Shown here: positions 28,671 to 49,944 of the stretch, piece after piece | How the letters are laid out: each line of letters starts with the position of its first letter | Position numbering within the stretch: position 1 is the stretch's first letter | Assembly (NCBI RefSeq): GCF_000263735.1 | Contig: NC_017946.1 | Span: forward strand, 1 to 64,000 | Origin: Pyrococcus sp. ST04 | Lineage (GTDB): Archaea > Methanobacteriota_B > Thermococci > Thermococcales > Thermococcaceae | DNA length: 64,000 bases | Direction of reading: 5' to 3' | The notes under the pieces: model-generated | What the model was told of the DNA's origin: nothing | The model's input: only the letters and a program-made list of their open reading frames with translations | Database searches by the model: none | Position numbers and translations under genes: made by a program

Positions 28671-28740
28671 TGCCCCCGGGAAACCGCGGCGGGGGAGCGA
28701 GGCGGCGAGCTGTGATCCCGCTTCGCTCCCCGGGGGCACA
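28671..28740 (+). ncRNA. GC-rich structured RNA, possibly an H/ACA-type guide
   Basis: A 70-base GC-rich island in AT-rich flanks, which in hyperthermophiles marks stable RNA. The ends pair (GCCCCCGG with CCGGGGGC) and ACA follows the closing stem (28738-28740), as in archaeal H/ACA sRNAs. Inside, GGAGCGAGGCGG pairs with CCGCTTCGCTCC, capped by CGAGCTGTGATC, which has the GA/GA elements of a K-loop (L7Ae site). The left side holds an unpaired AAACCGCGG region that could act as one guide arm. The pocket is lopsided, so the H/ACA class is uncertain; it may be one of the 'hgc' RNAs found in Pyrococcus by GC content. Confidence 0.65.
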
Positions 28741-47535: not shown

Positions 47536-48261
47536 ATGAAAAAGCGCAACCTCACCGTGTTATCCCTACTTCTGATTACAATTATATTTGCGGGACTTAG
47601 TTTTCAAACAACATCCCAGTGTAAAAAGGGAAAAGTTGGATTCATTATTCTTGTTCATGATGTAAGTCCGGTATATATAAGCTATCTCCAAAACATAACC
47701 AAGATTATACAAGAGTACGGTCTTCAGAGTGATACATACTTGCTGATAATCCCTAATCATGCTGGAAATAATGAGATAAGCAAGTACCCGATGTTTGTGG
47801 CGATGATAAAGAGGCTTGAGAGGGAGGGGTTTAAAGTTGGAATCCATGGATATACGCATATTGGAGACGAATTCAACTGTAATTCCTCAGTTGCAGAGGA
47901 AAAGATAAAACTTGCCACCATTGCACTTAAAAAGGCTAACATAAGCTTTGAAAGGATATTTGTGCCTCCAAGGTATTCAATTTCAAAAGAGGCGTTGAAT
48001 GTTCTCTTAAAAGACAACTTTACGGTCATCTTGAGGGACAGGATTTACTATCCAAACGGAACATGTATCAAAGTTAAGAACAGAGAGTACACGTGGTATG
48101 CAAGTAACTTCACGCTTGGGATTAGACTTATAATAGCTAAATTTGAATTCAGAAAGAATAAAGAAAACTTTATCCTCTCCCTTCATCCAAAAGCAGCAAA
48201 CTACGGTTGTGGATTGGAATTTCTAAGGAGATTTTTGGAGTTCGTTAAGAGCCTCGGCTAA
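47536..48261 (+). CDS. Secreted DUF2334 deacetylase-like protein
   Basis: 241 residues. Signal peptide (KKRNLTVLSLLLITIIFAGL), then the DUF2334/polysaccharide-deacetylase fold: LVHDVSPVY, IHGYTHIGDE and VPPRYSISKEALNVL, with Asp/His ligands for a metal. It would remove acyl groups from a carbohydrate outside the cell. Divergent from an ABC-2 exporter, which might export its substrate. ATG with GGGGGAG. Confidence 0.75.
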   Translation: MKKRNLTVLSLLLITIIFAGLSFQTTSQCKKGKVGFIILVHDVSPVYISYLQNITKIIQEYGLQSDTYLLIIPNHAGNNEISKYPMFVAMIKRLEREGFKVGIHGYTHIGDEFNCNSSVAEEKIKLATIALKKANISFERIFVPPRYSISKEALNVLLKDNFTVILRDRIYYPNGTCIKVKNREYTWYASNFTLGIRLIIAKFEFRKNKENFILSLHPKAANYGCGLEFLRRFLEFVKSLG

Positions 48262-48306
48262 CCCTCTTTTCCTCACCGTTCAGCGTGGCTAACGGTCGTC
48301 ATCGGC
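48251..48306 (-). ncRNA. Candidate C/D box sRNA with altered boxes, minus strand
   Basis: Reading the minus strand: ATGACGA (C, 48302-48296), 12-base guide CCGTTAGCCACG, CTGA (D'), ACG, GTGAGGA (C'), 12-base guide AAAGAGGGTTAG, CCGA (D). The box spacing is exactly that of the canonical sRNA beside it. The U in the C box and the U in the D box that face each other in the K-turn have both become C, so the kink-turn GA pairs are kept. Short GCC/GGC ends could pair. It overlaps the end of the deacetylase gene. Altered boxes make it a candidate only. Confidence 0.35.
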
Positions 48307-48341
48307 CATAGCTTTTAAAAAGAAAAGAGGTTAAAAGTTTT

Positions 48342-48397
48342 GAGGATGATGAGCGTTTACCGGTCTGAGCCGTGATGAAATCGGCACTGTCTGACAT
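48342..48397 (+). ncRNA. C/D box sRNA (2'-O-methylation guide)
   Basis: ATGATGA (C, 48346-48352), guide GCGTTTACCGGT (12), CTGA (D', 48365-48368), GCC, GTGATGA (C', 48372-48378), guide AATCGGCACTGT (12), CTGA (D, 48391-48394). All four boxes are perfect and the 12-3-12 spacing is that of archaeal L7Ae-fibrillarin guides. By the N+5 rule the expected methylated bases are the second G of ACCGG in ACCGGUAAACGC and the U of ACAGU in ACAGUGCCGAUU; I have not identified which RNA holds these. A TTAAAA run lies about 10-14 bases upstream. Confidence 0.88.
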
Positions 48398-48398
48398 T

Positions 48399-48434
48399 TT
48401 CCTTTTGTAAGCCTCGTCCTTTAGGGGATGTCAG
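48399..48434 (+). repeat. IS200/IS605-end-like hairpin, copy C
   Basis: TTCCTTTTGTAAGCCTCGTCC then TTTAGGGGATG, a shortened copy of the repeat. CTGACAT (48391-48397, including the sRNA D box) and ATGTCAG (48428-48434) form a 7-bp inverted repeat around it. It sits between the sRNA and the convergent GcvPB stop. Confidence 0.5.
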
Positions 48435-48435
48435 T

Positions 48436-49944
48436 TTAATAGTCCACTTCACCCTTTTCCTTTAGCTCCTTGTACATCTTCCAAGTTATTATCGGCTTCT
48501 TCGCCGCGAGAACGTCATCCACTCTTCTGACGGCCGTGTTATGAGGTGCCGACTTAACGACTTCGGGGTTAGTATAGGCCTCCTCGCTTATCTTCTTGAG
48601 GGCTTCAACATATGCATCAAGCTCTTCCTTAGTTGCAGTTTCTGTAGGCTCTATCATTAATGCCTCGTGGACTATCAATGGGAAGTATATTGTTGGAGCG
48701 TGCATTCCAAAATCTAAGAGTCTCTTTGCAACGTCAAGAGCTTTAACTCCCGTATCCCTTCTCATGGGCTCTGCAGAGAACACAACTTCGTGCTTTCTAA
48801 GTTCTTTATGAGGTAACTCGTAGCCTCTTGTTCCCTTCAGCTTCTGTGTGAGGTAGTTAGCGTTCAAAACGGCAACCTCGCTCACTTCCTTAAGACCATC
48901 CCTACCCATTATCTTAAGGTAAGTTAGAGCCCTTACCAATACTGAAAAGTTGCCAAAGAGTTCCTTAACTTTCCCTATGCTCTTAGGAACATTGTAGTCT
49001 AAATAATACCTGTCGTTCTCTTCATCATAGCTGACAAGAGGAACTGGTAGGTAATCTTTAAGAAAGTCTTTGACTCCAACGGGACCTGCACCTGGCCCTC
49101 CTCCTCCGTGAGGTGTTGAGAAAGTCTTGTGAAGGTTCAGGTGGACGATGTCAAATCCCATATCTCCGGGCCTTATCTTTCCAAGTACAGCATTTAGATT
49201 GGCCCCATCGTAGTAAAGAAGTCCCCCAGCTTTGTGAACTATCTTTGCTATTTCCAGAATTTCATCCTCAAAAATTCCCAGGGTGTTCGGATTCGTAAGC
49301 ATTAGTCCTGCAGTTCTCTCACTTACCGCATTCTCAAGTGCCTCTAGATCTACTGTTCCATTTTCATTTGATGGAATTTCAATAACCTTAAATCCAGCCA
49401 TTGCTGCAGAGGCAGGATTTGTTCCGTGTGCTGAATCTGGAACGAGCATTTCTGTTCTCTGGGTTTCTCCCTTATCAAGGTGGTAAGCCTTTATTATCAT
49501 AACACCAGTAAACTCCCCATTAGCTCCAGCGGCCGGTTGCAATGTGAAGCGATCCATTCCTGTAATCTCCTTAAGCCACTGTTCAAGTTCCCACATTATC
49601 TTTAGAGCTCCCTGAACAGTTCTTTCATCTTGATATGGGTGGAGGAAAGCTACCTTCGGATGAGTTGCAAGTTCCTCGTTTATCTTAGGATTATATTTCA
49701 TTGTACATGATCCTAGGGGATATATTCCCGAGTCAACACCATAGTTCATCTCACTGAGCCTTGTATAGTGCTTAACAACCTCCGGCTCGCTAACTTCAGG
49801 TAAGTTGAGAGGGCTCTTTCTCCTGAGCTTTTCAGGTATTTTAACATCCACATCCTCTATTGGCTTTGGTAATGTGTAGCCAACCCTTCCGGGATGTGAA
49901 AGTTCAAAAATTAGGGGCTCATCCCACTTTGCCTGCCTGAACAT
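48436..49944 (-). CDS. gcvPB: Glycine decarboxylase P-protein subunit 2
   Basis: 502 residues, the C-terminal half of P-protein encoded alone. PLP lysine in [18 protein letters not shown], cofactor contacts in [16 protein letters not shown] and [12 protein letters not shown]. With GcvPA it decarboxylates glycine and loads the aminomethyl group on GcvH. The two halves are contiguous (GcvPA stop next to this ATG), sharing GAGGTGTTGTAA. GcvT, GcvH and lipoamide dehydrogenase are not in the window. Confidence 0.97.

Follow-up and report, generated by a model that had tools for sequence, protein, structure and literature searches.

The window (the whole stretch analyzed, 64,000 nucleotides from Pyrococcus sp. 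ST04) contains two box C/D guide RNA genes, sR34 on the minus strand and sR12 on the plus strand. The pair sits between two convergent protein genes. The features of the locus are listed below; boxes were read from the sequence, and "own" positions are those in this genome's 23S rRNA.

47536..48261, plus strand: DUF2334 / polysaccharide-deacetylase-like gene (open reading frame, Pfam)
48250..48253, minus strand: 3' side of the sR34 terminal stem, GGCU; antisense to the 3' end of the DUF2334 gene
48251..48306, minus strand: C/D box guide sRNA sR34 (RF01273; Rfam match 48252-48306), 5' end near 48306
48254..48257, minus strand: sR34 D box, CCGA; has C rather than U at its second base, 3n (48256)
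48258..48269, minus strand: sR34 D guide, AAAGAGGGUUAG; 10 Watson-Crick bp with 23S AUAACCCUCUU, predicted target C at own 2042
48270..48276, minus strand: sR34 C' box, GUGAGGA
48280..48283, minus strand: sR34 D' box, CUGA
48284..48295, minus strand: sR34 D' guide, CCGUUAGCCACG; 23S duplex of 9 bp, or 10 with G-U, predicted target G at own 2316
48296..48302, minus strand: sR34 C box, AUGACGA; has C rather than U at its fifth base, 3b (48298)
48304..48307, minus strand: 5' side of the sR34 terminal stem, GGCC; its partner is GGCU at 48250-48253
48312..48322, plus strand: TATA-like box, CTTTTAAAAAG; centre ~25 bp upstream of the sR12 5' end
48330..48339, minus strand: TATA-like box, AACTTTTAAC; centre ~28 bp upstream of the sR34 5' end
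48342..48397, plus strand: C/D box guide sRNA sR12 (RF01147; Rfam match 48344-48395)
48346-48352, plus strand: sR12 C box, AUGAUGA
48353..48364, plus strand: sR12 D' guide, GCGUUUACCGGU; 11 bp with 23S, predicted target own G2019 (E. coli 1897 in the alignment)
48365-48368, plus strand: sR12 D' box, CUGA
48372-48378, plus strand: sR12 C' box, GUGAUGA
48379..48390, plus strand: sR12 D guide, AAUCGGCACUGU; 8 Watson-Crick bp, or 10 with G-U, predicted target U at own 1978 (E. coli 1841)
48391-48394, plus strand: sR12 D box, CUGA
48436..49944, minus strand: glycine cleavage P-protein subunit gene (gcvPB-like; open reading frame, Pfam), converging on the sRNA pair

Both RNAs have 12-3-12 spacing, and 43 bp lie between their C boxes. 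In sR34, the 3b and 3n bases (we follow the Lilley nomenclature) are opposed in the K-turn, and the tandem G.A/A.G bases are intact. The first-pass annotation, which was made from the sequence alone, was right about the box letters, the spacing, and the way in which the two changed bases face each other. The last codons and stop (48259-48261) of the DUF2334 gene run antisense over the D box and D guide of sR34. (Elsewhere in the window, at 28672-28740 on the plus strand, is the H/ACA sRNA Pab160; RF02796, 81.3 bits.)

The minus-strand RNA belongs to a known family, because the Rfam sR34 model matches it above the curated cut-off. (With cmscan, positions 1-54 of RF01273 match 48252-48306 on the minus strand at 75.6 bits, with a gathering cut-off of 40.) On the plus strand, positions 1-52 of the sR12 model, RF01147, match 48344-48395 at 61.4 bits, with a gathering cut-off of 38. 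The E-values over the window are 2e-12 for sR34 and 3e-10 for sR12. The general snoPyro_CD model also matches both RNAs, each time below that model's cut-off. The match to sR12 is full-length, with no difference of note. The minus-strand RNA is like RF01273 in its guides, boxes, spacing, and terminal stem across the full 54-position model, but its 3b.3n pair is C.C where the model has G.C, and its D'-C' spacer is one base longer. (The RF01273 consensus, AUGAGGA with CCGA, is itself not U.U.) It has the C-D'-C'-D order, the 12-nt guides, and the terminal stem (GGCC/GGCU) of a C/D guide sRNA. Its C and D boxes, AUGACGA and CCGA, depart from the strict consensus RUGAUGA/CUGA, but the K-turn core bases and the box C uridine are kept. 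Both sR34 and sR12 are thus already catalogued, and the K-turn pair of sR34 is a common variant among relatives. In the literature that we searched, and leaving to one side the first survey of Pyrococcus sRNAs (Gaspin et al. 2000), we found no paper that names Pyrococcus sR34.

sR34 is present in 92 of 94 genomes from the host family, including all 74 of good quality, and has no match in 14 control genomes. We read its boxes in 89 orthologues. The guides are near-invariant, the spacing is 12-(2,3,4)-12 in 87 of the 89, and a terminal stem of at least 3 bp is possible in 85. The stem shows swaps between G:C and A:U at the fourth pair and between C:G and G:C at the first two. Loss of the box spacing in relatives, which the first-pass annotation had named as a sign against a second guide RNA, is therefore not what we see. 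An sR12-like RNA lies divergent to sR34 in all 58 g3 genomes, 8 of 8 g1 genomes, 7 of 7 g5 genomes, and 7 of 13 g4 genomes that we read; it is absent from g2, g6, and six g4 genomes. The two RNAs are on opposite strands, and the spacer between them ranges from 8 to 86 bp among relatives. The divergent arrangement is itself conserved, which is of some interest.

Several relatives depart from the usual form. Six g4 genomes (G075, G078, G079, G082, G083, and G084) have lost sR12 but retain sR34 and the TATA on its spacer side. This suggests that two 23S methylations were lost or that the guide was replaced. Some g4 genomes have a second sR34-like match (L098-L103), which is a paralogous C/D sRNA with guides ACGUCAGCACG / GGGACUUGG and G.C at 3b.3n. 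T. kodakarensis sR61 looks like a relative of this paralogue, but with U.U. In four g3 genomes (G025, G028, G038, and G040), the D'-C' spacer of the sR12 orthologue is not the usual 3 nt but a long GC-rich insert, such as GACCGCGCTCCGTGCGGCAC.

Orthologues of both RNAs are known to be expressed in T. kodakarensis. The published sRNA coordinates from this organism land on C/D sRNAs in its genome (G023), and those of sR41 (1226838-1226899) and sR42 (1226948-1227017) correspond to sR34 and sR12, respectively. In a small-RNA data set, sR41 had 31 circular reads and 1,967 aligned reads, and sR42 had 7,194 circular reads and 12,085 aligned reads (PMC9014305). Both were found in linear and circular forms, and the circularisation depends on Rnl (PMC9014305). 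sR41 and sR42 form a divergent pair like that in the window. Since the sequenced sR41 carries C.C boxes identical to those of the window's sR34, an RNA with these altered boxes is made and is stable in a relative. sR42 differs from the window's sR12 in having a longer D'-C' spacer and A.C at 3b.3n.

These results bear on whether the minus-strand pattern is a chance or decayed look-alike of a C/D sRNA, with sR12 alone being functional. Two of its box bases are changed, and it overlaps the 3' end of a protein gene, as a look-alike might. But a 75.6-bit match to Rfam, near-invariant guides in 92 of 94 genomes, and an expressed circular orthologue with the same boxes leave this idea with virtually no chance of being correct; we consider it ruled out by the Rfam scores and the conservation. 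The first-pass annotation had thought that such a pair would be unusual. The minus-strand RNA is neither new nor in doubt as a gene, as it is Rfam's sR34 and its T. kodakarensis orthologue has been sequenced in linear and circular forms. The proposal that two divergent guide RNAs lie here holds up: Rfam matches both, and the arrangement is mostly conserved in the host family.

To find candidate targets, we scanned the guides against the organism's own 16S and 23S rRNAs and compared each guide to 60 shuffled guides. The D guide of sR34 forms 10 consecutive Watson-Crick pairs with 23S, in which C2042 faces the fifth base counted upstream from box D; 1 of 60 shuffled guides did as well. C2042 aligns with C1920 of E. 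coli, in helix 69. The D' guide of sR12 (11 pairs, target G2019) was equalled by none of its 60 shuffled guides. The other two guides are weak by this measure. The D guide of sR12 (own U1978) was equalled by 7 of 60 shuffled guides, and the D' guide of sR34 by 9 of 60, so the latter match is weak on its own, yet this guide is near-invariant in relatives. The best targets of the two RNAs flank helix 69 or fall within it. Published predictions of archaeal methylation cluster in this helix (PMC4644070), and the bacterial equivalent of C2042, C1920, is methylated by a protein enzyme, TlyA (PMC12805891).

The main role of the minus-strand RNA might instead be to regulate the overlapping DUF2334 mRNA, and not to guide on rRNA, as it covers the last codons and stop of that gene in antisense. 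We think that this is very unlikely. The overlap is not found everywhere (the gene stops short of the sRNA in L004-L005, where the guides and boxes are unchanged), and the D guide fits helix 69 over 10 bp. We are nearly certain that two archaeal box C/D guide genes, sR34 on the minus strand and sR12 on the plus strand, form a conserved, divergent pair here, whose RNAs should guide 2'-O-methylation of 23S rRNA. Anatomy, family membership, conservation, and guide complementarity are our own evidence, along with the published expression of the orthologues; from these we infer expression in this genome, assembly into RNPs, and methylation.

If so, each RNA would be driven by its own TATA within the 43-bp spacer. 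Boxes C and D would fold into a K-turn and boxes C' and D' into a K-loop, and the folded RNAs would bind L7Ae, Nop5, and fibrillarin. (sR34 retains what L7Ae needs: the sheared G.A pairs, the bulged uridine of box C, and the terminal stem.) The D guide of sR34 would then direct 2'-O-methylation at the 23S C that is equivalent to E. coli C1920 in helix 69, and its D' guide would direct methylation at own G2316. The sR12 guides would direct methylation at the 23S equivalents of E. coli 1897 and 1841.

We also compared the 3b.3n pair across relatives and across the sRNAs of this genome. Biophysical work has singled out this pair as controlling the folding of K-turns. Archaeal box C/D K-turns are strongly U:U at 3b:3n (PMC5689011). 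Among the 89 orthologues of sR34, 55 have C.C, 16 have U.U, 12 have C.U, 3 have G.C, and U.C, A.C, and C.G occur once each. The pair is mostly C.C in genus g3, and the window's own genus has C.C, G.C, and U.U; the three cases of G.C are from Pyrococcus. sR12 is equally variable in g3 (A.C, C.C, A.A, A.U, A.G, G.C, and others) and has U.U in the window. Of the C/D sRNAs from the window's genome, 45 are readable (counting the window's sR12, whose C box we assigned by eye): 33 have U.U, 4 have G.C, 3 have A.U, 2 have A.C, and there is one each of G.U, C.U, and C.C. About a quarter are therefore not U.U. Of 20 circular sRNAs from T. kodakarensis that are readable at the published coordinates (including sR41 and sR42), 11 have U.U and 4 have C.C. 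We conclude that C.C in sR34 is a lineage variant that is tolerated in place of the usual U.U, and the view that such altered boxes are unusual has to be given up for this clade.

The first-pass annotation had also called the two changes compensated. What stands is that the two sides of the pair are coupled. A D-box C with a C-box U was never seen among the readable sRNAs of the window's genome (Fisher p = 1.7e-5) or of T. kodakarensis (p = 0.002), although these tests assume that the sRNAs are independent, and the set from the window's genome was selected with a model biased towards canonical boxes. This coupling is real but is not strict compensation. C.C is not a Watson-Crick pair, and one-sided C.U (12 genomes) and U.C (one genome) exist, so the term "compensated" holds only loosely. 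Strict Watson-Crick compensation is rejected for this genome by its C.C, although three Pyrococcus do have G.C. We also considered whether the change in the D box is forced by the overlapping protein gene. We reject this as a general cause, because the box is still CCGA in relatives whose gene stops short of the sRNA.

Could the C.C pair tune the K-turn, so that sR34 folds with metal ions alone while the orthologues with U.U, and especially G.C, need L7Ae? Under the published rules, C at 3b (if not with G at 3n) allows ion-induced folding, and a Watson-Crick 3b.3n pair blocks it (PMC4382518). In box C/D K-turns, the effects of -1b:-1n, 3b:3n, and 4b:4n add up, and G at -1n favours folding (PMC5689011). 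The window's sR34 has C:G at -1b:-1n, C.C at 3b.3n, and G:C at 4b:4n. These rules predict somewhat better ion-induced folding for its K-turn than for a typical archaeal box C/D K-turn. The first two pairs, and the retention of C.C across most of g3, fit with tuning. But G:C at 4b:4n impairs folding, and close relatives have U.U, C.U, or G.C in sR34. Because the pair varies among relatives in both sR34 and sR12 (the latter within g3), we see no sign of selection for one folding class, and we doubt that C.C is there to tune folding. A broader idea, which we rate as slightly less probable still, is that the C/D K-turns of Thermococcales include a recurring class that leaves U.U in a coupled way (to C.C, G.C, or A.C, with U.C avoided) and in which C.C folds without L7Ae. 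If this were true, RNP assembly would depend on protein-driven folding to different degrees for different guide RNAs in the same cell. Either way, sR34 provides a natural series in which a single sRNA keeps its guides nearly fixed and has U.U, C.U, C.C, U.C, A.C, C.G, or G.C at one K-turn pair. The RNAs themselves were catalogued; this comparative side is what we add, and it is of modest interest.

The spacer between the two genes seems to hold one divergent promoter in three states: crossed TATA boxes, a shared TATA, or no spacer to speak of. Spacers of 41-43 bp (the window, g4, and g5) have two TATA-like boxes, each ~25-28 bp from the RNA that lies beyond the other box. The offsets of these boxes are identical in all 14 of the g4 and g5 spacers that we read and that have both RNAs. 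Spacers of 56-59 bp (g3 and one g1) have a single central TATA. In T. kodakarensis, this TATA (1226921-1226929) is 22-23 bp from both of the mapped starts, which are at 1226903 on the minus strand for sR41 and at 1226948 on the plus strand for sR42 (PMC9014305). The bidirectional BRE-TATA-BRE promoters of P. furiosus have one symmetric TATA and divergent starts ~49-50 bp apart (PMC6640164). The sR41/sR42 promoter resembles these, with starts 45 bp apart around one TATA midway between them, while the window differs from both in having two crossed TATA-like boxes. Also, the bidirectional promoters of P. furiosus mostly yield non-functional antisense RNA (PMC6640164), whereas here both products are conserved guide RNAs. 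A scan for sigma-70 promoters found nothing, but such a scan does not apply to archaea. Finally, in three g1 genomes (Pyrococcus), the spacer is just 8 bp. So short a gap cannot accommodate promoters, and it must therefore also be possible for the two RNAs to be processed out of longer transcripts. Such transcripts are believed to be the source of most archaeal C/D sRNAs (PMC7994747), and probably of sR34 and sR12 with the 8-bp spacer as well.

At the 3' end of sR12 is a ~45-bp repeat (48392-48435) of the form TGAC..TTTTC..AAGCCTCGYCCTTTAGGG(CGGGGAGGAG)GTCA, whose 16-base core occurs at 18 places in the genome. Because this copy starts within the sR12 D box, that box doubles as the end of the repeat. 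The repeat resembles either a small mobile repeat or one end of an IS200/IS605-type element. Copies of the same type lie within the sR34/sR12 spacer of two other genomes (G007 and G010).
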